A stretch of 64,000 nucleotides of DNA. Source: Bradyrhizobium jicamae. Lineage in GTDB: Bacteria; Pseudomonadota; Alphaproteobacteria; Rhizobiales; Xanthobacteraceae. A program made the position numbers and the translations under genes. Positions 31,585 through 45,708 of this stretch are shown piece after piece (the stretch's first letter is position 1; every line of letters starts with the position of its first letter). The DNA lies in the NCBI RefSeq assembly GCF_018130695.1, contig NZ_JAFCJX010000003.1:124001-188000 (forward strand), written 5' to 3'. The notes under the pieces were generated by a model that searched no databases, was not told the origin of the DNA, and saw only the letters and a program-made list of their open reading frames with translations.

Positions 31585-32472
31585 CTAGAGCGACATCGCG
31601 AAGCGATGTTCGGGCAGGCCCTGCGCGAGGCCGTGAATAGCGAGAACATGGCCTGCCTGGGGCTCGCTGCGCAGCTGCTCGTCGCTCAGGAATTTCCGCG
31701 CTGACGTGATGAACAGCGTCGTGAGATCGCGGCCTCCGAAGCAGACGCAGGTTGGATTGGTCACGGGCAGGTGGATGACCGTGTCGATCCGGCCGTCCGG
31801 GCGGTAGCGCACCACGCGGCGGCCGGAGAAGAACGCCTGCCAGATGCCGCCATCGACATCGACGCAGGCGCCGTCCGGCCGCTCGCCGGTGGCGCGATAG
31901 TCGGCAAACAGCCTTCGATTGGAGATGGCGCCGTCGTCGAGATCGAAATCGAATTGCCAGGTGCAGTAGCGCCGCGTGTCGGTGAAATAGAGCGTGCGGT
32001 TGTCGGGCGCAAACGCAATGCCGTTGGTGACGATGACGTCGCTGAACAGGCGCGTCACCTCGCCATCGCCGGTGACGCGATACAGCGCGCCGTTCGGCCG
32101 GTGCAGCTGATTGTCCATCGTGCCGATCCACAGCCGGCCCCGTGCATCGATGCGCCCGTCATTGAGGCGATTGTCGATCTCGCGTTCGACGTCGCAGATG
32201 TGGCGCACCGGGTCCTGGTGATGAAGGCCGAGGTCCAGCGCCAGCAGATGCGAGCCGGCGGATGTCAGGGCCTGGCTGCCGAGGAATTGGCCCTCGTGGG
32301 AATATGTCCGGTGCGCGCCGGTCGCGGGATCGAAGGACTGATGCAGCCGTCGATCGACATCGATCCACCACAGCTTCCGTGACCGGTCGCACCACAACGG
32401 CGTTTCGCCGAGCGCATCTTTGGCCGCAACGGCGGTCTCGACCTTGTCGGCAGGGATCGTGGCGATGCTCAT
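31585..32472 (-). CDS. SMP-30/gluconolactonase family protein
   Basis: A 295-residue six-bladed propeller. Expected metal ligands are Glu in LGETPLWCD, Asn in VTNGIAF and Asp in GACVDVDGG. It probably hydrolyses a sugar lactone. The start shares a 4-bp ATGA overlap with the stop of the M24 peptidase gene, so the two are coupled in the minus-strand operon led by the GntR regulator. Confidence 0.88.
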   Translation of the reverse strand: MSIATIPADKVETAVAAKDALGETPLWCDRSRKLWWIDVDRRLHQSFDPATGAHRTYSHEGQFLGSQALTSAGSHLLALDLGLHHQDPVRHICDVEREIDNRLNDGRIDARGRLWIGTMDNQLHRPNGALYRVTGDGEVTRLFSDVIVTNGIAFAPDNRTLYFTDTRRYCTWQFDFDLDDGAISNRRLFADYRATGERPDGACVDVDGGIWQAFFSGRRVVRYRPDGRIDTVIHLPVTNPTCVCFGGRDLTTLFITSARKFLSDEQLRSEPQAGHVLAIHGLAQGLPEHRFAMSL

Positions 32473-33641
32473 TCGGGTATCTGATTCCAGCCGCGGGCGT
32501 GGTCGCCGAACGCGTCATATCCATTGGCAGTAACGGCGATCGTATCCTCGAGCTTGATGAAGCCGCGCTGCTTGTGGGGCAGGGTGGTCTCGATCGAGAT
32601 CACCATGCCGGCCTCCAGCGAATGATCGGCGTCGTCGGCAGGATAGGGGATCGGACCATCAGCGGTCAGGCGCGGCGCCTCGTGGCTGACGATGCCCATG
32701 CCGTGGGCGACGAAATGCATCTGCTCGCGGTGTGGCGACCGTGCGAGCGCATCGCGCGCCGCCGTGTAGATGTCGCGGCCGAGCAGGCCGGCCTTGATCG
32801 GCGCCCGCGCTGCTTGTTGGACCCGATCGATCTCGCCGAGCAGATCGACCAGCTCCTGGTCGGGCGCGCCGTGCACGGCCATGCGGCAGAGATCGCCGAT
32901 GTACCCGCGAAAATTGCCGCCGGAGTCGAGCGACACGACGTCACCGCGTTTCAGCCGCTGATCAGACGGGGCGCGATTGAAGCTCGTGCCCAATGTCACC
33001 AGCGCATATTCGAAGACCATGTCGCGGGAGAGTTCGGCCTGGCGCAGATGGCCGATGATCTCGCGCTTGCTCTGCCCAAGCCGCGTCAGCTTGACGGTAT
33101 CCAGCATGGAATCGACGACGCGCTCGGAGGCTTCGCGGAGGATATCGAGCTCAGCGGGGCTCTTGATGGCGCGCAGTTTTTCGAGCGGACGCATCGCCTC
33201 CACGATCGGACAATCGCCAAGGCTCGCGCGCAGTGCGTCCGCCGCATCGGCGGGCAGGAACGACATCTCGACGCCGATACGGAGCGGGGAGGTCGCGACG
33301 GCCTTCACATGCTTCAGCGCCAGCGCCATCGCCTCGACGGAGGTGGACGACCCGAACAAGACTTGCGGCATCCAGTGTCCGGCGTCGATCCTGTTCTGGA
33401 CGCTGTCGCGCTCGTTGCGGTTGGCGATGTAGGCGGATTTGTCGAGCGCGCCCTTCACATAGACGACGATTGGCAAGTAACGGCTGATGCCGATCGCCTC
33501 CATGTAATCGAACTGGAAGTGATAGTAGCCGCCGAGCAGGTACTGGATGTTATGCCGGGAAGTGACGAGCAGGACGTCGATGCCGGCCGCATCGAGCAAG
33601 CCGTCGAGCCTCGCCATGGAGAATGGACTATTGGGATGCAT
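32469..33641 (-). CDS. M24 family metallopeptidase (Xaa-Pro peptidase-like)
   Basis: A 390-residue protein with a creatinase-like N-terminal domain and a pita-bread catalytic domain. Metal ligands are visible: Asp in SLDSGG and YIGDLCR, His in HFVAHGMGI, Glu in SIETTL and KLEDT. The ATG at 33641 is chosen; the 25 upstream codons look non-coding. In catabolic clusters such proteins may act on amide-type substrates rather than dipeptides. Confidence 0.85.
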   Translation of the reverse strand: MHPNSPFSMARLDGLLDAAGIDVLLVTSRHNIQYLLGGYYHFQFDYMEAIGISRYLPIVVYVKGALDKSAYIANRNERDSVQNRIDAGHWMPQVLFGSSTSVEAMALALKHVKAVATSPLRIGVEMSFLPADAADALRASLGDCPIVEAMRPLEKLRAIKSPAELDILREASERVVDSMLDTVKLTRLGQSKREIIGHLRQAELSRDMVFEYALVTLGTSFNRAPSDQRLKRGDVVSLDSGGNFRGYIGDLCRMAVHGAPDQELVDLLGEIDRVQQAARAPIKAGLLGRDIYTAARDALARSPHREQMHFVAHGMGIVSHEAPRLTADGPIPYPADDADHSLEAGMVISIETTLPHKQRGFIKLEDTIAVTANGYDAFGDHARGWNQIPE

Positions 33642-33691
33642 CGGCGATCCGTGGCGGCCTGCGCCGCTTCTTGTTTGACGTCCGTCCGGCG

Positions 33692-34396
33692 TTAAGCCGG
33701 TGACCCCTCTTTCCACGACGAGAGGGCGAAGGCGACGCAGTTGTTGATGTGGTCGGTCAGCACCGCCCTCGCGGTCTCGATGTCGCGCTTCAGCGCGCAG
33801 TCCAGCAGCGCCTTGTGCTGGTTGATGGTCTCGGTGCCGCGGTAGCGCAGCGCGTAGCGGAAATATTTGTCGAACACGACGGAGTGGGTCTGCATCAGCT
33901 CGCGCGAGCCGCAGCTCGAGATCAGCGCCTGGTGGAATTCGCCGTCATAGCGCTTGCGCAGCTCCGGATCGTCGCCGGCGGCGGCGATGGTGCGCTCGGT
34001 CGCCGCCAGCTTGTGATGGGCGGAGACGACGCGGCCTTCCCATTCCATATCGCCGGCGCGAAACGACTCGGCCATCGCGTGATGCTCAAGCAGGATGCGA
34101 AGGTCGGCGAGCTCGCGCAGGTTCTGGATCGATACGGGGGCGACCTCGAAGCCGCGCTGGCCTTCGGCCACCACAAATCCCTCGGACGCCAGGCGATTGA
34201 GGATCTCGCGCAGCGTCGAGATGCTGACGCCGTAGTCCTCCTTCATCGCGTCGAGCTTGAGCCGTCCCGACGGCGTCAGCACGCCGAAGATGATGTCGGA
34301 GCGAATCCGTTGATAGCCGCTGTCGCCCGCCGACAGGGGCCGTCCCTCCAGGAACGTCATGCCTTCAAATCCCGCTTTGCCGGATGCGCCGCCCAT
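33692..34396 (-). CDS. GntR family regulator, FCD (FadR-like) subgroup
   Basis: A 234-residue protein if started at the ATG at 34396 (an ATG at 34360 is also possible). The winged helix-turn-helix (LDAMKEDYGVSISTLREILNRLASEGFV) is followed by an all-helical FCD domain with metal-binding His (FHQALISSCGS, DHINNC). It is divergent from the TRAP transporter and heads the operon with the M24 peptidase and SMP-30 genes, so it probably controls both sides. Confidence 0.87.
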   Translation of the reverse strand: MGGASGKAGFEGMTFLEGRPLSAGDSGYQRIRSDIIFGVLTPSGRLKLDAMKEDYGVSISTLREILNRLASEGFVVAEGQRGFEVAPVSIQNLRELADLRILLEHHAMAESFRAGDMEWEGRVVSAHHKLAATERTIAAAGDDPELRKRYDGEFHQALISSCGSRELMQTHSVVFDKYFRYALRYRGTETINQHKALLDCALKRDIETARAVLTDHINNCVAFALSSWKEGSPA

Positions 34397-34479
34397 CGGC
34401 GGGGCTGAACCCTCAATGTTGCCAGCACTATAGCAGAGTCGACGCATCCTATGTCTACATGAATCTCATATGAAAACAA

Positions 34480-34499
34480 TATCATCATTTGACATGATA
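34480..34499. promoter_or_regulatory. Candidate GntR operator in the divergent control region
   Basis: Inverted repeat TATCAT, 8-bp spacer, ATGATA, overlapping a consensus -35 TTGACA (34489-34494). It lies in the AT-rich 190 bp between the GntR gene and the TRAP genes. Confidence 0.45.
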
Positions 34500-34586
34500 A
34501 TAAACGTATGATTTCAGATTGACCTGAAGGCGTGGAAAGCAAGGGCTTAAGCCCCGTTCGCGCCGCGGGCATTCAGGGAGGTCAAA

Positions 34587-35606
34587 ATGAGCTTGTTGGT
34601 ACGGGCGCTGTCGGCGACGGCGATCTGCGTTGCGCTGACAGTGGGGGCATCCGCCGCCGACGACATTCAGGAGCGGACGATCAGGTGGGGACACCTGAAC
34701 AATACCGATCACCCCGTCAGCATGGGCGTGCAGAAGTTCGCCGAGATCCTGCTTAGGAAGAGCGGGGGCAAGATGAAGATCCGCGAGTTCGCGGCCTCGC
34801 AGCTCGGCAACGAGCTGCAGCAGCAATCGGCGCTGCGCGGCGGCACCCAGGAAATGCTGTCGGCCTCGACGACGTCGCTTGCGACCGTCGTGCCGGAGTT
34901 CGGGCTGCTCGACTTCCCCTTCATCGTGAACACGGTCGAGCAGGCCGATGCGCTCGGCACCGGCGCGTTTGGCAAGGCGATGATCGACACGCTGCCGTCA
35001 AAGGGACTGATCGGCCTCGGCTACTGGGGCCTCGGCTTCCGCAACGTCACCAACAGCACCCGTCCCATCACCAAGCTCGAGGATTTCAGCGGGCTCAAGC
35101 TGCGCGTGATCCCGAACCCGGTTTACCTCGAGACCTTCGGCTCATTCAAAGCCAACCCGGTGCCGATGGCGTTCGGCGAGCTATATTCGGCGCTGGAGAC
35201 GCGCACCGTCGACGGCGAAGAGAATCCGTTCACGGTGATCCTCTCCAACAAGTTCTACGAGGTGCAGAAATACGTCTCGGCCACCAACCACACCTTCACG
35301 CTGAACATCATCCTCGTCAGCAAGGCGTTCTGGGACAAGCTGTCGCCGACCGAGCAGCGCCTGATGCGCGAGGCCTATGAGGAGAGCCGCGGCTACCAGA
35401 AGGAGCAGACCAAGGCTCAGACCGAGAAGGCGCTGACGGAATTGCAGGCCAAGGGCATGCAGTACAACACGGTCGCGCCGGAAGAGCTCGACCGCATGCG
35501 CAAGACCGCGCAGCCGGTGGTCGACAAGATCTCCGCCAACCTCAAGCCGGAGGCGGTGAAGCTTTTCAACTCGGAGCTCGAGCGCGTCCGCAAGGACGTG
35601 AAGTAA
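34587..35606 (+). CDS. dctP: TRAP transporter substrate-binding subunit (DctP family)
   Basis: A 339-residue periplasmic binding protein with a signal peptide (to about residue 24, GASAADD). The family block GFRNVTNSTRPI has the substrate-binding Arg just before a PxxxxEDFSGLKLRV segment. TRAP systems of this kind import organic acids with Na+ or H+. The substrate is not readable; the neighbouring dehydroquinase-like and lactonase-like genes hint at a sugar acid or cyclic hydroxy acid. Confidence 0.9.
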   Translation: MSLLVRALSATAICVALTVGASAADDIQERTIRWGHLNNTDHPVSMGVQKFAEILLRKSGGKMKIREFAASQLGNELQQQSALRGGTQEMLSASTTSLATVVPEFGLLDFPFIVNTVEQADALGTGAFGKAMIDTLPSKGLIGLGYWGLGFRNVTNSTRPITKLEDFSGLKLRVIPNPVYLETFGSFKANPVPMAFGELYSALETRTVDGEENPFTVILSNKFYEVQKYVSATNHTFTLNIILVSKAFWDKLSPTEQRLMREAYEESRGYQKEQTKAQTEKALTELQAKGMQYNTVAPEELDRMRKTAQPVVDKISANLKPEAVKLFNSELERVRKDVK

Positions 35607-35669
35607 TCGACCGAACATGCAGGCGGCAGAGCCGGCCGCGTGGCCGGCTCTCGGATTCCCTTTGCCCGG

Positions 35670-36188
35670 ATGTTACCCATGGCGCGAGCTCTCGATCTCT
35701 ATTGTGCGTTCCTGAAGGCCGTCATCGCCGCCTGTCTGGTGGTGATGGTGGTGCTGGTGTTCGGCAACGTCGTCCTGCGCTACGGCTTCAACTCCGGCAT
35801 CACGATCTCGGAGGAACTGTCGCGCTGGCTGCTGGTCTGGCTGACCTTTCTCGGTGCCATCGTCGCGATGCGCGAGCACGCCCATCTCGGCGTCGATACG
35901 CTGGTGCGGATGCTGCCGGCCATGGGCAAGCGCGTCTGTTTCGTCATCAATTACGGCCTGATGCTGTTTGCCGACTGGCTGCTGCTCACGGGCAGCTGGC
36001 GCCAGACCATGATCAACATCGACGATCGCGCGCCGGCCACCGGCCTGTCGATGGCGATCTTCTACGCGGTCGGCGTGATCTTCGCCGTCTCGACCGGGAT
36101 CATCCTGCTCTACGACCTCACCCGGGTGATCACCGGGCAGGCCAGCGAGGAAGACATGGTCGCAGTACGGGAGTCGGAGGAGCAGTGA
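35670..36188 (+). CDS. dctQ: TRAP transporter small permease (DctQ family)
   Basis: A 172-residue membrane protein with four transmembrane helices. The DctQ signature ISEELSRWLLVWLTFLGA and REHAHLGVD is clear. The ATG at 35670 is chosen over a GTG at 35640; an ATG at 35679 is also possible. It lies between dctP and dctM. Confidence 0.88.
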   Translation: MLPMARALDLYCAFLKAVIAACLVVMVVLVFGNVVLRYGFNSGITISEELSRWLLVWLTFLGAIVAMREHAHLGVDTLVRMLPAMGKRVCFVINYGLMLFADWLLLTGSWRQTMINIDDRAPATGLSMAIFYAVGVIFAVSTGIILLYDLTRVITGQASEEDMVAVRESEEQ

Positions 36189-36234: not shown

Positions 36235-37515
36235 ATGACGATCGCGGTCTTCACCTTTTCGCTGCTGGGTGCGATGGCGCTGGGCATGCCGATCGCGTTT
36301 GCGCTGCTGATCTGCGGCGTAGCGCTGATGAGCACGATCGACATGTTCGATTCCCAGATCGTGGCGCAGAACGTCATCAACGGCGCGGACAGCTTTCCGC
36401 TGATGGCGATTCCCTTCTTCATGCTCGCCGGCGAGATCATGAACAAGGGTGGCCTCGCCAAGCGCATCGTCAACGTTGCGCTGGTGGCGGTCGGGCATTT
36501 CCGCGGCGGGCTCGGCTATGTGACGATCCTGGCCGCCTGCATCCTGTCGTCGCTGTCGGGATCGGCCGCTGCAGACGCCGCAGCGCTTGCCGCGCTGCTG
36601 GTGCCGATGATGGTGGCGGCCGGCCACAAGAAGACCTACGCGGCCGGACTTGTCGCCGCCGGCGGCGTCATCGGTCCCGTGATTCCGCCGAGCATCGGCT
36701 TTGTCGTGTTCGGCGTCGCTGCCAACGTCTCGATCTCAAAGCTGTTTCTCGCCGGCATCTTTCCCGGCCTGCTGCTCGGACTGGGCCTCTGCATCGCCTG
36801 GTGGTGGGTGGTGCGCGCGGAAGATCTGACGCCGCCGCCGCGCGCCTCTTTCCGTGAGGTCGCTCACGCCATCATGGACGGCTTCTGGGCGCTGATGCTG
36901 CCGGGGATCATCATCGTGGGCCTGCGCTTCGGCATCTTCACGCCGACCGAGGCGGGCGTGGTCGTAGCGGTCTATTCGCTGTTTGTCGCGACCTGCATCT
37001 ATCGCGAGCTGAAATGGTCGGAGCTCTACGCCGTCATCGTGTCATCGGCGGTGACGACCAGCGTCGTGATGTTCCTGGTCGCGGCCGCGCTGGTGTCGTC
37101 CTGGCTGATCACGGTCTCCGAGATCTCGATGCAGGTCGTCGATCTCCTCAAACCCTTCATGGGCAACAACACGCTCCTGATGCTGGCGATCATGGTCGTC
37201 GTCGTGATCGTGGGCACGGCGCTCGACATGACGCCGACCATCCTGATCCTGACGCCGATCCTGATGCCGATCGTCAAGGCCGCCGGCATCGACCCCGTCT
37301 ATTTCGGCGTGCTGTTCATCATCAACAATTCGATCGGCCTGATCACGCCGCCGGTCGGCATCGTGCTCAACGTCGTCTGCGGCGTCTCCAGGATCAGCAT
37401 GGAGGACGTCATCAAGGGCGTCTGGCCCTTCATGATCGCGCAGCTGGTCGTGCTATTCGTGATGGTGCTATTCCCGGGGCTCGTGACGATCCCGGCGAAA
37501 TGGTTCGGCGGCTAG
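36235..37515 (+). CDS. dctM: TRAP transporter large permease (DctM family)
   Basis: A 426-residue transport channel with about twelve hydrophobic segments. Family blocks FPLMAIPFFMLAGEIMN, GSAAADAAALA, VIPPSIGFVVFG and ITPPVGIVLNVVCG are present. It works with the two preceding subunits. It starts 46 bp after dctQ and is followed 17 bp later by the dehydroquinase-like gene. Confidence 0.92.
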   Translation: MTIAVFTFSLLGAMALGMPIAFALLICGVALMSTIDMFDSQIVAQNVINGADSFPLMAIPFFMLAGEIMNKGGLAKRIVNVALVAVGHFRGGLGYVTILAACILSSLSGSAAADAAALAALLVPMMVAAGHKKTYAAGLVAAGGVIGPVIPPSIGFVVFGVAANVSISKLFLAGIFPGLLLGLGLCIAWWWVVRAEDLTPPPRASFREVAHAIMDGFWALMLPGIIIVGLRFGIFTPTEAGVVVAVYSLFVATCIYRELKWSELYAVIVSSAVTTSVVMFLVAAALVSSWLITVSEISMQVVDLLKPFMGNNTLLMLAIMVVVVIVGTALDMTPTILILTPILMPIVKAAGIDPVYFGVLFIINNSIGLITPPVGIVLNVVCGVSRISMEDVIKGVWPFMIAQLVVLFVMVLFPGLVTIPAKWFGG

Positions 37516-37532: not shown

Positions 37533-38030
37533 ATGACAATCCGGATCATGATCCTCAACGGACCCAATCTGAATTTCCTGGGGATCCGCGAGCCCCACAT
37601 CTACGGCGCGACGACCTTGCAGGAGATCGAGGCGAGCTGCCAGGCGCTTGCCGATTATCTGGGCATCTCGATCTCGTTCCACCAGTCGAACATGGAGGGT
37701 GAGCTGGTCAATCTGATCCAGTCGGCGCATGGGGGCAAGGCCGACGCGATCATCATGAACCCGGCGGCCTATTCCTTCACCTCGATCGCGCTGATCGATG
37801 CGCTGAAGATCTTTGAGGGTCCGAAGATCGAGGTGCATATCTCGAACATCCATGCGCGGGACGAACTGCACCGACACTCCATCACATCGAGCGCCTGTAC
37901 GGCTGTGATCTGCGGCCTCGGTCCTTATGGCTACCTCGCGGCGATGCTGGCGGCCGTGCAGCGACTCGGAAAATTGCCTGACACGGTTCCAGCGGCCCTG
38001 CACGGGCTCGCGACCAGCGGCAAGGCGTAA
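37533..38030 (+). CDS. Type II 3-dehydroquinate dehydratase-like protein, altered active site
   Basis: A 165-residue AroQ homologue: NGPNLNFLGIREP near the start, Arg19 and Tyr24 in place, Asn76 and EVHISN also kept. Two usual active-site residues differ. The THTS block is SFTS, so the catalytic-network His is Phe82. The Arg of the lid-side EEFRRHS block is His113 (DELHRHS). It is therefore probably not the shikimate-pathway enzyme. Position in the TRAP operon suggests it acts on the imported compound. Confidence 0.75.
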   Translation: MTIRIMILNGPNLNFLGIREPHIYGATTLQEIEASCQALADYLGISISFHQSNMEGELVNLIQSAHGGKADAIIMNPAAYSFTSIALIDALKIFEGPKIEVHISNIHARDELHRHSITSSACTAVICGLGPYGYLAAMLAAVQRLGKLPDTVPAALHGLATSGKA

Positions 38031-38040
38031 GGAGATCAGG

Positions 38041-38697
38041 ATGCGCGGCACGGGATTTCTCGCGATCTGGAGCGACGTCGAGGCTGACGATCTCGTCGAT
38101 TACCGGCACTGGCTCACCCGTGAGCACACGACCGAGCGGGTGACGACCAGGGGGTTTCTGGCCTCGCGGGTGTTCCGCGCTGCACGGGACGACATCAACC
38201 GCTTCTTTATTCTCTATGAGCTGGAAACGCCGGAGGTGCTCGATGGTCCGGCCTACATGGCGCGGCTCAATGCGCCGTCGCCATGGTCGCAGCGCATCAT
38301 GCCGAAGCTTGGCAATTTCATCCGGGGCGGCGGCGTCATGGTGGCCCGCGGCGGACGCGGCGAGGGGGCGACCGTGATGGCCTTGCGGGTCGAGAAAATG
38401 CCGGCCGATCCCGCGCGGCTGGTCCAGGCGCTGGTTGCGTGCGACGGCGTTGCCGCAGTGCAAATCGGCGCGACCGATGCGGCCCGCACCTCCGTCCAGA
38501 CGACGGAAAAGGGCATGCGGAAAAATGAGGGGTTTTTTGAGGGGTTGCTGATCATCGAAGCGCTCGACCTGGCGTCGGCGCAAAATGCGTTGTGGAAGGC
38601 GGAAGAGATCGCGCCGGACGTGCTCCGCAGGGCCAGCGATCCCGAAATCTATCTGGGCATGTTCGCGCTCGATGCGCGCATTGCCGACTTCGGTTGA
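38041..38697 (+). CDS. Protein of unknown function in the TRAP operon
   Basis: A 218-residue soluble protein with an AAGGAGATCAGG site right before its ATG. It appears to have two similar halves of ferredoxin-like, dimeric alpha-beta-barrel type: FLAIWSDVEADDLVDYRHWLTREHTTERV at the start, a second beta-rich unit from about residue 115. It lies 10 bp after the dehydroquinase-like gene and closes the operon. The function is not known to me. Confidence 0.6.
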   Translation: MRGTGFLAIWSDVEADDLVDYRHWLTREHTTERVTTRGFLASRVFRAARDDINRFFILYELETPEVLDGPAYMARLNAPSPWSQRIMPKLGNFIRGGGVMVARGGRGEGATVMALRVEKMPADPARLVQALVACDGVAAVQIGATDAARTSVQTTEKGMRKNEGFFEGLLIIEALDLASAQNALWKAEEIAPDVLRRASDPEIYLGMFALDARIADFG

Positions 38698-38942: not shown

Positions 38943-39896
38943 ATGCAGCGCCTCTTGGTTGCGGGTGTTTCGGCTGCGTTGGCGATGGCGCTCGGGATGA
39001 GCGCTGCGAACGCCGCGGACAAGAAAGTCCTGGCCTTCGTCGTCAACGGCGCGTCCGACTTCTGGAAGATTGCGGAAGCCGGCGTGAAGAAGGCGCAGGG
39101 CGAGCTTCCGAAATACGATTTGCAGTTCAAATATCCGGAACAGGCTGCCGCTGCTGTGCAGCAGCGCGTGATGGAGGATCTGGTCGCGGCGGGCGCCGCC
39201 GGCATCATGGTCAGCTCCGTCGACCCGAAGAACCAGACCGCGCAACTCGACAAGGTCGCTTCGCAGACGGTGCTGTTCACCACCGATAGCGACGCCCCGC
39301 AGTCGAAGCGGGTCGCCTATATCGGCTCGTCCAACGTCGATCTCGGCAAGGACGCGGGCAAGTTGATGCTCAAGGCGCTGCCGAACGGCGGCAAGTGCGT
39401 CGGCTTCGTTGGCCTGCCCGGCGCCGACAATGCGCGCGAGCGCATCGAAGGCGTCAAGGAGACCATCAAGGGCTCCAAGGTCGAGCTGGTCGACGTCCGC
39501 GGCGACGAGATCGACCAGACCCGCGCCAAGCGCAATGTCGAGGACATCCTCGCTGCGATGCCCGACGTCAGCTGCCTGGTCGGCTTCTACTCCTACAACA
39601 CGCCGCGCATTTATGAAGTGCTGAAGGAGGCCGGCAAGCTCAACAAGATCCAGATCATCGGCTTCGACGAGGATCCGATCACGCTCGGCGGCGTCAAGGA
39701 AGGCTCGATCGCCGGCACCGTCGTGCAGCAGCCGTTCGAGTGGGGCTATCAGGGCATGAAGCTGATGGCCAAATACATCGAGGGCGACAAGTCGGGCATT
39801 CCGCCGAAGGGCATCATCATCGTTCCCGGCAAGGTCATCGACAAGTCGAATGTCGACGACTTCATGGCCTCGATGAAGGCGATGCTGAAGAAGTAA
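38943..39896 (+). CDS. Sugar-type ABC transporter substrate-binding protein
   Basis: A 317-residue periplasmic binding protein of the RbsB/ribose type. The signal peptide runs to about residue 25 (SAANA). The mature start KKVLAFVVNGASDFWKIAEAGVKKA and later GFDEDPITLGGVKEGSIAGTVVQQP are characteristic of the family. It is followed by its ATPase and permease, making a complete CUT2-type importer. The sugar is unknown. Confidence 0.9.
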   Translation: MQRLLVAGVSAALAMALGMSAANAADKKVLAFVVNGASDFWKIAEAGVKKAQGELPKYDLQFKYPEQAAAAVQQRVMEDLVAAGAAGIMVSSVDPKNQTAQLDKVASQTVLFTTDSDAPQSKRVAYIGSSNVDLGKDAGKLMLKALPNGGKCVGFVGLPGADNARERIEGVKETIKGSKVELVDVRGDEIDQTRAKRNVEDILAAMPDVSCLVGFYSYNTPRIYEVLKEAGKLNKIQIIGFDEDPITLGGVKEGSIAGTVVQQPFEWGYQGMKLMAKYIEGDKSGIPPKGIIIVPGKVIDKSNVDDFMASMKAMLKK

Positions 39897-39910
39897 AGGC
39901 TCAGCGCGGC

Positions 39911-41410
<1,500 letters not shown>

Positions 41411-41422
41411 AGTGAGGGGACC

Positions 41423-42400
41423 TTGCACAAGAAAGACCTGAGCCTGCTGGTCCTGATTCTCGTGGTCGGCACCGTCGTCGCCTTGATCAACCCGCGCTTC
41501 CTGCTGGTCGGCAACCTCTCCAATACGCTGAACCAGGTCGGGCTGTTCGGCATCTTCTCGATCGCGGAAGCGTTTGTGATCATCATCGGCGGCATCGAGC
41601 TGTCGGTCGGCTCGGTGATCGCGTTGCTCGGCGTGCTCTTCATCGACCTCATCGTCAATCACGACGTCAACTGGGTGCTGGCCTTTGCCATCATTATCGC
41701 GGCCGGGCTCGTGATTGGCCTCGTGCACGGCACGCTGGTGACGCGGATGAAGATCCAGCCCTTCGTCGTGACGCTGTGCGGGCTTCTGATCTACCGCGGC
41801 GCCGCGCGCTACTACACCGAGGATTCCACCGCCGGCTTCGGCTTCGGCGCGAGCTTCCCGACACTGGAATGGCTGACCGCGGGCCGCACCAACGTGCTGG
41901 GCTTTCCGCTGCCGCACAGCGTGGTGGCGCTGGTCGTGGTCGCCGCGATCGCCTGGGTCGTGCTGCACCGTTCGGTGTTCGGCCGCTATCTCTACGCCGT
42001 CGGCAAGAACGAGGAGGCGGCGCGCTATTCCGGTATCCGTGCCAACCGCGTGATGATCTCCGCCTACATCATCTGCGGCGGGCTGACGGCGTTCTCGGCG
42101 ATCCTGATCGCGATGTACACAAGATCGATCTCGCCGGCCGTGCACGGCTCGTTCTACGAGCTCTACGCCATCGCCGCCGCCGTGCTCGGCGGCTGCTCGC
42201 TGCGCGGCGGCGAGGGCTCGATCGTCGGCGTCGTGCTCGGCACCGTGCTGCTGCAGGTGCTGCAGAACCTCGTCAATCTCTTGGGCATTCCGAGCTCGCT
42301 CAACTTCGCGGTGATGGGCACCGTGATCCTGATCGGCGTGCTAGCCGATCAGTACATCTCCCAGCGCGGCCGGCACGGGGCGGCGAAGGGGCGCGTTTAG
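41423..42400 (+). CDS. Sugar-type ABC transporter permease (RbsC-like)
   Basis: A 325-residue permease with about ten hydrophobic helices, starting at TTG 41423 behind GTGAGGGGA. The family motif GGIELSVGSVIAL (position about 50) and YAVGKNEEAARYSGI are present. It is the third gene of the importer operon. Confidence 0.88.
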   Translation: MHKKDLSLLVLILVVGTVVALINPRFLLVGNLSNTLNQVGLFGIFSIAEAFVIIIGGIELSVGSVIALLGVLFIDLIVNHDVNWVLAFAIIIAAGLVIGLVHGTLVTRMKIQPFVVTLCGLLIYRGAARYYTEDSTAGFGFGASFPTLEWLTAGRTNVLGFPLPHSVVALVVVAAIAWVVLHRSVFGRYLYAVGKNEEAARYSGIRANRVMISAYIICGGLTAFSAILIAMYTRSISPAVHGSFYELYAIAAAVLGGCSLRGGEGSIVGVVLGTVLLQVLQNLVNLLGIPSSLNFAVMGTVILIGVLADQYISQRGRHGAAKGRV

Positions 42401-44388: not shown

Positions 44389-45708
44389 ATGGACCGGAAG
44401 TATCTCGTCAAGCAATACAACACCTACTCGGTAGTGGTGGAGGTCCCCAAGCCTCTCCAGGCCAAGGCGGGTAGAAAACGCTTCAAGAAGTCCCTTGGCA
44501 CCGACAGTCTTGCCGAAGCGAACAGACGCAAGCACTTCCACGTTGCCAACTTCCACAGGCAGATCGCCGAATGGGCGAAGGGCGGCGGCGACGGTGACGC
44601 GAAACTGGCTCGATTGGCAGGAGAGTTCCGGCAGGCGCTCGAAAGCTCCGATAAGCGGTGGCATGAAGACGAGCAGGAGCGCGAGTGGAGCGAGTACGAA
44701 GAGGAGCTTGACCGGCTGAAGGCTCAGGCGGGCGAGATACTGAATAGCGACGGCTCGGAGGCCGCAGCGCGGTTCTACAACGCCGCCACGGGTCAAGCCA
44801 CCTTCCTGAAGGACCAATACCCCCTTTGGCTCGCTGAGGTCCAACACGCTGGCCAAACCAAGGCGCAGCACGAGAGCGCCATCAAGCGGTTCATGGATTG
44901 GGGCACCGACAGCGTGACCGTTGAAGAGGTGACCCGAAAGAAGGCGGGAGCCTACGTGACGGACTTGTTGACCGGCTCAGGCTTTGCGCGCGCCACGGCA
45001 AGGCGTCACGTATCATCACTCTCGTCTCTTTGGCTTTGGCTCGTGGGACGTGGCGTGGCCCAAGAGAACCCTTGGCGAGGCCAGCAACTCGGCAAGAAGC
45101 AGGAACCCGCTGAGCGGAAGGGCCTTCCCAATGAGGCGCTTCTGAAGCTCCTCAAGGGCACCTACAGCACGCCCAAATTCGCCCAAGTGCTCAGCGACCT
45201 TCTAAGGCTTGCACTGCTTCACGGGGCTCGTTTAGAGGAATTGTGTGCCCTGAAGCGGTCCGACGTTCACAAGCGCGAAGATGGATATTGGCTGGCCATC
45301 ACGAGCGGCAAGACGCGCGCCGCCAAGAGGGAGATACCCGTTCACCCGCTGGCCGTGGAAATCATTGAGCGTCGCCGCGACGACAAGGATGAGTACCTGT
45401 TCGCTGGCCTTGATCCGGGCGGACCAGACAAGAAGCGCTCTTGGTACATCAGCAAGGCGTATGGCCGCTTCAGGGAGCAAGTCGAAGTCGATGGGGACAA
45501 GCAGGACTTCCACGCGCTCCGAAACACCTTCATCACCTGCATGGAGGGGCTTGGCGTGATGGAAAGCACCGTAAAGTTGCTTGTGGGACACAGCCGCAAG
45601 GGGAGCATGACCTACGGCCACTACTCCAAGGGTGAGCGCGTGCCCTTACGGGAGGCTATCCAGAAGTTGGATTATGGGGCTGAAGTGATGAAGGCGATTG
45701 CCCTCTAG
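44389..45708 (+). CDS. Tyrosine recombinase (phage-type integrase)
   Basis: A 439-residue site-specific recombinase. The N-terminus (KYLVKQYNTYSVVVEVPKPL) is a DUF6538-like arm-binding domain, followed by a SAM-like core-binding domain (about 155-245). The catalytic domain has Arg in HGARLEEL, Lys in ITSGKTRAAKRE, HxxR in FHALRNTF, His in VGHSRKG and a terminal Tyr in YGHYSKG. All six catalytic positions appear intact. It lies 90 bp inside the left attachment repeat. Confidence 0.92.
   Translation: MDRKYLVKQYNTYSVVVEVPKPLQAKAGRKRFKKSLGTDSLAEANRRKHFHVANFHRQIAEWAKGGGDGDAKLARLAGEFRQALESSDKRWHEDEQEREWSEYEEELDRLKAQAGEILNSDGSEAAARFYNAATGQATFLKDQYPLWLAEVQHAGQTKAQHESAIKRFMDWGTDSVTVEEVTRKKAGAYVTDLLTGSGFARATARRHVSSLSSLWLWLVGRGVAQENPWRGQQLGKKQEPAERKGLPNEALLKLLKGTYSTPKFAQVLSDLLRLALLHGARLEELCALKRSDVHKREDGYWLAITSGKTRAAKREIPVHPLAVEIIERRRDDKDEYLFAGLDPGGPDKKRSWYISKAYGRFREQVEVDGDKQDFHALRNTFITCMEGLGVMESTVKLLVGHSRKGSMTYGHYSKGERVPLREAIQKLDYGAEVMKAIAL

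Follow-up and report, generated by a model that had tools for sequence, protein, structure and literature searches.

A branch of type II dehydroquinases carrying a Phe82/His113 pair and often coupled to import genes

Type II dehydroquinases hold their substrate through a described set of residues. According to the accessible part of PMC6011038, the C5 hydroxyl is bound in the Mycobacterium tuberculosis and Helicobacter pylori enzymes by His81/82 and Arg112/113, the carboxylate is held by the backbone of residues 102/103 and 103/104, the Ser103/Thr104 side chain, and Asn75/76, and the C4 hydroxyl is held by Asp88'/89'; Arg112/113 is also described as lowering the pKa of the tyrosine. The catalytic residues listed in the excerpted text of PMC10772564 are Asn12, Arg19, Tyr24, Asn75/76, Glu99/100, His101/102, and Arg108/109, and the same text reports that the Corynebacterium glutamicum variants His81Ala and Arg112Ala each lacked detectable activity. 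The Bacillus subtilis enzyme is active with a natural Tyr24Phe exchange (PMC4314829); the accessible part of that paper does not give the residues at 82/113 of the 38 enzymes assayed. No account of a dehydroquinase branch with Phe/His at these positions was found in the open-licence literature searched, and the terms aroQ, quinate, shikimate, and dehydroquin are absent from the text of PMC10949508.

The TRAP operon of the window

The window (the whole 64,000-nucleotide stretch of DNA that was analyzed) contains an open reading frame encoding a full-length, 165-aa type II dehydroquinase, P0001, here called AroQ-F. In a Pfam scan, P0001 matched PF01220 with 176.8 bits (gathering score 23.3), which places it in this superfamily, and in alignments to solved type II dehydroquinases its best relative was 2uyg (144 bits). 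The genes for DctP, DctQ, and DctM precede aroQ-F in this order on the same strand and form a TRAP transporter operon with it, as the initial annotation had proposed; its description of the gene as closely following dctM and preceding a gene for a protein of unknown function was also correct. The features of the locus are as follows.

31585-32472 (-): SMP-30/gluconolactonase-type (SGL) protein, common in close relatives
32469-33716 (-): M24/creatinase-type protein, an occasional neighbor in relatives; the gene caller chose a later start, 33641
33692-34447 (-): GntR/FCD regulator, divergent from dctP
34448-34586: control region of 139 bp between gntR and dctP
34587-35606 (+): TRAP solute-binding protein DctP, with 4p47 and 7bbr as nearest solved chains
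35640-36188 (+): DctQ, the small TRAP permease; resembles YiaM but scores under the YiaM cut-off
36235-37515 (+): DctM, the large TRAP permease; resembles YiaN but scores under the YiaN cut-off; its stop codon lies 17 bp upstream of the AroQ-F start
37533-38030 (+): AroQ-F, type II dehydroquinase paralogue of 165 aa; Phe82 codon at 37776-37778, His113 codon at 37869-37871
38041-38697 (+): P0010, 10 bp behind AroQ-F; predicted fold taken to be a tandem dimeric alpha+beta barrel

Beside aroQ-F in the window, the neighbors are thus the TRAP, P0010, GntR, M24, and SGL genes, and aroE, a dehydroshikimate (DHS) dehydratase gene, and pca genes are absent there. Ribose-type ABC transporter genes follow at 38943-42400, 245 bp behind P0010, with a binding protein (PF13407) and then open reading frames that read as an ATPase and a permease. 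A serine hydrolase of the beta-lactamase fold (PF00144; 30199-31575), with a likely signal peptide as judged by eye, is convergent with the SGL gene. The open reading frame at 44389-45708 reads like a tyrosine recombinase, judged by its motif, and perhaps marks the edge of a mobile element.

Neither Pfam nor NCBIfam gave a match for P0010 at E 0.001. Its structure, predicted with high confidence (pLDDT 91.9), showed a fold that we presume to be a tandem dimeric alpha+beta barrel, and the model was nearest to putative monooxygenases, with a TM of about 0.6 and an identity of about 10%. W24, R27, E28, H29, E32, and R33 were invariant in 12 aligned sequences, and a paralogue (31%) was found on contig C45 of the same genome. 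The nearest solved relatives of the window DctP were 4p47 (282.7 bits) and 7bbr (251.5 bits), the second of which we take to be CxaP. According to the excerpted text of PMC12076931, the ligands of CxaP include xylonic, fuconic, galactonic, and gluconic acids. Any substrate read from the homology of DctP would be only a lead.

Residues 82 and 113 and the extent of the branch

When P0001 was aligned with solved type II dehydroquinases, Phe82 fell on the His of the HTS motif and His113 on the Arg of EEFR, and Asn12, Arg19, Tyr24, Asn76, Asp89, Glu100, His102, Ser104, and Arg109 were unchanged. These alignments bear out the two exchanges that the initial annotation had reported, together with the retention of Arg19, Tyr24, Asn76, and His102. 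P0001 numbering at the substrate-binding positions is the same as that of H. pylori. Because the 82/113 pair binds the C5 hydroxyl in the solved enzymes, the switch affects the C5-hydroxyl site and spares the other ligands. A hydrogen bond to a C5 oxygen could still come from His113 or Tyr113.

A residue table was compiled from 133 distinct sequences with more than about 100 aligned residues, comprising 93 Phe/His, nine Phe/Tyr, 30 His/Arg, and one Met/Arg at positions 82/113; all were found through their likeness to P0001 or L079, so that these shares are not population frequencies. Phe82 was always paired with His113 or Tyr113 (102/102) and His82 always with Arg113 (30/30). Asn12, Arg19, Tyr24, Asn76, Ser84, Asp89, Glu100, His102, and Arg109 were identical in all Phe82 and His82 sequences of this set that cover them, and the catalytic residues listed above were all present in P0001 and in 102/102 Phe-type sequences. 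Columns 82, 112, and 113 separated the Phe type from the His/Arg type completely; column 112 is the only independent one among them, as 82 and 113 served to define the groups. The Phe82/Tyr113 variant was seen in L091, L101, L111, L129, L133, L135, L158, L160-L164, L250-L252, and L254-L256; its hosts are rhizobia, other Alphaproteobacteria, and Burkholderiaceae, and some of these genes lie in quinate/protocatechuate clusters. Met82/Arg113 (L100) and Asn82/Arg113 (L244) were rarer single variants.

Among the best 80 of 391 confirmed candidate loci, ranked by likeness to P0001, all 80 encoded Phe82 together with His113. These loci came from a scan of named genomes; most hosts were Bradyrhizobium and its kin, and the remainder included Nisaea, Pseudomonas, an Aeromicrobium, and a Burkholderiales bin. 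When 385 alphaproteobacterial genomes were searched separately, more Phe-type members were found, along with His/Arg neighbors. This recurrence, with the 80/80 result, confirmed that the pair is more than a chance combination.

Trees were built from 70 of 138 sequences, with near copies (at least 86% identity) removed. In the tree calculated without columns 82, 112, and 113, 37 rows (35 Phe/His and two Phe/Tyr) were separated from the other 33 with support of 98/98, and five changes were needed for the four residue types. The five other Phe/Tyr rows were placed on the His/Arg side, suggesting that the Phe/Tyr type may be an intermediate or may have arisen apart. AroQ-F is a member of a real, conserved branch of type II dehydroquinases that is often coupled to import, and not a one-off gene.

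Plasmids also carry dehydroquinase homologues, and 106 of the 413 plasmid records with one were from Klebsiella. In five annotated plasmid records, the annotated Phe-type proteins were named type II 3-dehydroquinate dehydratase. The Bradyrhizobium japonicum plasmid pS11L-1 (L248), typed as conjugative, bears a seemingly decaying copy of the window operon near an IS21 element, with no dctP listed and with short genes for a flavoprotein and in the place of gntR.

Paralogues and gene neighborhoods

The initial annotation had called the gene a paralogue, a claim that the absence of any other aroQ would undo; the window genome (8.68 Mb) gave three PF01220 matches, and the two further aroQ genes are both of the His/Arg type. 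One (L001) adjoins a biotin-carrier, accB-like gene (PF00364), and the other (L002/L174) has two protocatechuate-3,4-dioxygenase-like genes on one side and an aroE-like gene on the other. In the comparison with authentic AroQ that the annotation had suggested, P0001 was about 48% identical to both. P0001 scored 168.8 bits against TIGR01088, below the equivalog cut-off of 169.85, versus 192.7 and 191.2 for the two His/Arg proteins of the same genome; six of the eight Phe-type proteins scanned, P0001 included, were below this cut-off. P0001 passed NCBI subfamily models named type II 3-dehydroquinate dehydratase, for example, PRK05395.1-3. Since the C5-hydroxyl pair His82/Arg113, taken here as a mark of an authentic 3-dehydroquinate dehydratase, is absent, P0001 is filed in the PF01220 superfamily and not under that name; it most likely works like one. 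A His/Arg copy was also present in 24/24 other Phe-type genomes checked, and six genomes with a Phe-type gene near QuiC (G186, G203, G041, G044, G373, and G475) each have two aroQ genes, the other being His/Arg.

Gene context was compared between 38 Phe-type and 20 His/Arg representatives, with near copies (at least 86% identity) removed and at least 6 kb of flank required; L171 stands in for L174 and L176, and L169 for L170, leaving the pca and transporter neighbors of these merged loci uncounted, and L248-L253 and L254-L256 (the latter all Phe/Tyr) entered no count. A transporter gene lay directly upstream on the same strand in 21/38 Phe-type versus 1/20 His/Arg representatives (p 1.4e-4), and a permease alone in 19/38 versus 0/20 (p 6e-5). 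A Pfam check of the unlabeled upstream genes (six on the His/Arg side and three on the Phe side, plus the accB-like gene) added the binding-protein genes of L161 and L162 on the Phe side and the ABC ATPase gene of L171 on the His/Arg side. DctM was encoded within 8 kb of 17/38 Phe-type versus 0/20 His/Arg genes, whereas an accB-like neighbor was found in 0/38 versus 13/20. AroE or QuiC was encoded within 8 kb in 11/38 versus 2/20 representatives; this difference was not significant (p 0.18), and individual clear cases occur on the annotated plasmids described below. No recognized neighbor was present at 9/31 Phe/His representatives. His/Arg copies are likewise found in catabolic or transporter-linked settings, as in L171, with an ABC ATPase gene directly upstream, and L169/L170, with QuiC and AroE.

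Homologues of the window neighbors and associated proteins were counted in the best 80 of 391 loci, some of which are shortened by contig ends: P0010 in 54, DctM in 45, GntR in 43, a KstD-like protein in 32, SGL in 29, and a TIM-barrel protein in 24. The order aroQ-F, P0010, TIM-barrel, and KstD-like occurred in 13 of these best 80. The window copy has no TIM-barrel and KstD-like genes behind P0010; the QuiC-like, KstD-like, and TIM-barrel homologues of the window genome are located on other contigs. L022-like loci add aroE, two protocatechuate-3,4-dioxygenase genes, and an intradiol dioxygenase gene. The KstD-like gene adjoins aroQ-F in L069, L073, and L125 and is near it in many Bradyrhizobium; its product is a distant relation of 4-oxocyclohex-2-ene-1-carboxylate 5-dehydrogenase (445 bits versus a cut-off of 900). 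The SMP-30 and M24 proteins across the control region had also been linked to the enzyme. For the first part of this link, the 29 SGL loci are mostly close relatives, but an SGL gene was near only 5/38 dereplicated Phe-type genes (4/31 Phe/His and 1/7 Phe/Tyr), two of them distant (L069 and L073). The second part was weak: M24 lay between SGL and gntR in nine of the best 80 of 391 loci, or eight according to the gene calls, and was dropped as a partner. Neither neighbor is general.

Several relatives lie next to genes of the quinate-to-protocatechuate route. Neighbors of about 630 aa in L070, L114, L117, L122, and L124 aligned with the QuiC model over almost its whole length, scoring 630-723 bits; the cut-off of this model is 1200, and it was passed in 0/14 control genomes. 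The L124 protein matched 5hmq with 623 bits, and 5hmq is Pseudomonas putida QuiC1 (PMC7442255). A QuiC-like gene was found within 8 kb of 9/38 Phe-type representatives (L070, L072, L114, L117, L122, L124, L126, L127, and L162). The nine QuiC proteins near Phe-type genes retained nine or ten of the ten QuiC site residues listed in the accessible part of PMC7442255, and two near His/Arg genes retained all ten. Three c8 TIM-barrel proteins also retained over half of them. Such retention is no specific proof, since the TIM-barrel superfamily shares several of these residues.

Among Phe/Tyr members, a Chelatococcus plasmid shows the arrangement TRAP-AroQ-QuiC, a Paracoccus plasmid shows pcaHG, TRAP-AroQ, and pcaF, and on a plasmid of Rhizobium sp. 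CIAT894 (L252) AroQ is encoded amid transporter genes together with QuiC, shikimate dehydrogenase, and pca genes. In the latter and in Shinella (L256), the Phe/Tyr gene sits between an ABC binding-protein gene and permease genes. The Phe/Tyr genes of Paraburkholderia and Caballeronia follow an MFS transporter gene and, like the Phe/His gene of Terrarubrum, have no QuiC, shikimate dehydrogenase, or pca neighbors. Periplasmic oxidation of quinate with import of dehydroquinate was considered and not adopted: the membrane PQQ dehydrogenase TIGR03074 was above cut-off in 7/25 Phe-type genomes (the window's not among them) versus 3/26 others, and at 600 bits or more in 11/25 (the window's included) versus 6/26, neither contrast being significant, and nine of the 26 others (G363, G112, G114, G164, G348, G366, G196, G075, and G383) were deemed non-Phe by identity to P0001 alone.

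Candidate roles and comparison with known systems

We give about an even chance to AroQ-F being a catabolic dehydratase that is coupled to a transporter and acts on 3-dehydroquinate or on an analogue altered at C5. An acid would be imported by the TRAP transporter, and a 3-oxo-1-hydroxy-cyclohexane-carboxylate of the 3-dehydroquinate type would be dehydrated by standard chemistry, in which arginines, among them Arg19 and Arg109, would tune Tyr24 for removal of the C2 proton and His102 would protonate the leaving C1 hydroxyl. The product would be an enone of the 3-dehydroshikimate type, to be aromatized by a dehydroshikimate dehydratase (QuiC-like or a TIM-barrel protein) or by a dehydrogenase before ring cleavage. 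In place of the His82/Arg113 pair that clamps the C5 hydroxyl, there would be an aromatic wall (Phe82) and one neutral donor (His or Tyr113), and His113 may still hold a C5 oxygen. Alongside the observed residues, pair conservation, paralogy, and gene contexts, we infer the activity of AroQ-F, its substrate (3-dehydroquinate or a close analogue), and the order of the pathway. The later pathway enzymes are not adjacent in the window operon, and candidates for them are encoded on other contigs.

Because some relatives occur beside shikimate/quinate dehydrogenase, QuiC, and protocatechuate genes, AroQ-F most likely catalyzes the ordinary dehydration as part of a catabolic route. The new type of reaction envisaged in the initial annotation is not needed, given these neighbors of some relatives and the retention of all residues of the elimination chemistry. 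Several observations count against the catabolic dehydratase. A normal grip on 3-dehydroquinate is not obvious, since the C. glutamicum alanine variants at both positions are reported as inactive in the excerpted text of PMC10772564, and a third aroQ for plain quinate looks redundant because a His/Arg aroQ beside aroE and pcaGH (L174) is already in the genome. His/Arg copies (L171 and L169/L170) can also occupy catabolic, transporter-linked clusters, AroE or QuiC is not significantly commoner near Phe-type genes, some Phe/His genes stand without a recognized neighbor, and P0001 is just under TIGR01088. In addition, quinate is not known to us as a ligand of the binding proteins closest to the window DctP.

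The loss of both C5-hydroxyl ligands, with the carboxylate, C1-hydroxyl, and C4-hydroxyl ligands intact, would also suit a different substrate. The same elimination may act on a 3-dehydroquinate with an altered C5 (lacking the hydroxyl, differing in stereochemistry, or O-substituted in the manner of 5-O-acyl quinates) in a separate catabolic route, which we consider possible but doubtful. In Bradyrhizobium such a route would include P0010, the TIM-barrel protein, and a KstD/ChcC-like dehydrogenase that could aromatize by dehydrogenation. The strict pairwise conservation suggests selection for another substrate, and the placing of the KstD-like gene, behind aroQ-F, P0010, and the TIM-barrel gene in the 13 loci noted above and adjoining aroQ-F in L069, L073, and L125, and the coexistence of a His/Arg catabolic aroQ in the window genome point the same way. 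However, the QuiC proteins of Phe-type loci retain the dehydroshikimate dehydratase active-site set, Phe/Tyr members lie within quinate-to-protocatechuate clusters, and no natural C5-altered substrate emerged from the analysis. In the fullest version, which we regard as rather speculative, quinate-type acids altered at C5 (5-deoxy, 5-epi, or 5-O-acyl, e.g., chlorogenate-type esters after C3 oxidation) would be brought in by TRAP or other transporters and degraded by a hitherto undescribed route, with AroQ-F as its hallmark enzyme and with P0010, the dehydroshikimate-dehydratase-like TIM-barrel protein, and the KstD/ChcC-like dehydrogenase completing aromatization in Bradyrhizobium.

It is unlikely that AroQ-F instead acts as the dehydratase of an acyclic beta-hydroxy ketone that stems from a sugar acid supplied by the SMP-30 lactonase and imported by the TRAP transporter. 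The relation of DctP to the presumed CxaP, the resemblance of the permeases to YiaMN below cut-offs, the divergent SGL gene, and the rbs-type ABC transporter that follows fit this idea; against it, SGL is near few dereplicated genes, and distant members use other transporters, several of them beside aromatic-acid pathway genes. We regard it as very improbable that P0001 is an ordinary dehydroquinase serving redundantly in aromatic amino acid biosynthesis: P0001 passes the NCBI models so named, two AroQ copies are jointly needed in Ralstonia (accessible part of PMC10171560), and B. subtilis tolerates Tyr24Phe (excerpt of PMC4314829), but every Phe-type genome checked retains a His/Arg copy, and the accB-like neighbor of His/Arg genes is missing from all Phe-type representatives. 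The two residues lost are ones whose alanine variants are inactive (PMC10772564, as excerpted), which would suit a catalytically dead relative serving as a ligand sensor or scaffold; with the residues of the elimination chemistry invariant in 102/102 Phe-type sequences, we hold this to be highly unlikely.

The conserved switch would mean either that a large group of enzymes is misnamed and has another substrate or that a contact regarded as essential can be built in another way. It spans Alphaproteobacteria, Pseudomonas, Burkholderiales, and one actinobacterial record, and the operons would provide a way of studying how rhizobia take up plant acids of the quinate type through TRAP transporters.

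Compared with cyclohexanecarboxylate aromatization by ChcC1/ChcC2, the KstD-like neighbor in relatives is a distant homologue below the equivalog cut-off, and the window operon itself has no such gene. The sugar-acid TRAP operons (CxaP and YiaMNO) resemble the window operon in their DctPQM order and in related DctP and permeases, whereas the window has a dehydroquinase paralogue after dctM and no recognized sugar-acid enzyme save the divergent SMP-30 protein. With catabolic AroQ/QsuC of aroQ-aroE-quiC-pca clusters, some distant Phe-type members share neighbor genes and, presumably, the same step; in contrast, the catabolic His/Arg copies L169, L170, and L174 keep the C5-hydroxyl pair, and the window operon is without aroE, quiC, and pca. 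AroQ-F is like AroQ (PF01220 and TIGR01088; C. glutamicum, H. pylori, and Thermus thermophilus) in fold family, length, and Asn12, Arg19, Tyr24, Asn76, Asp89, Glu100, His102, and Arg109, but has Phe82 for His, His113 for Arg, Leu112 for Phe, and Ile117 for Tyr, and belongs to a separate clade whose genes often lie beside transporter genes and not accB.
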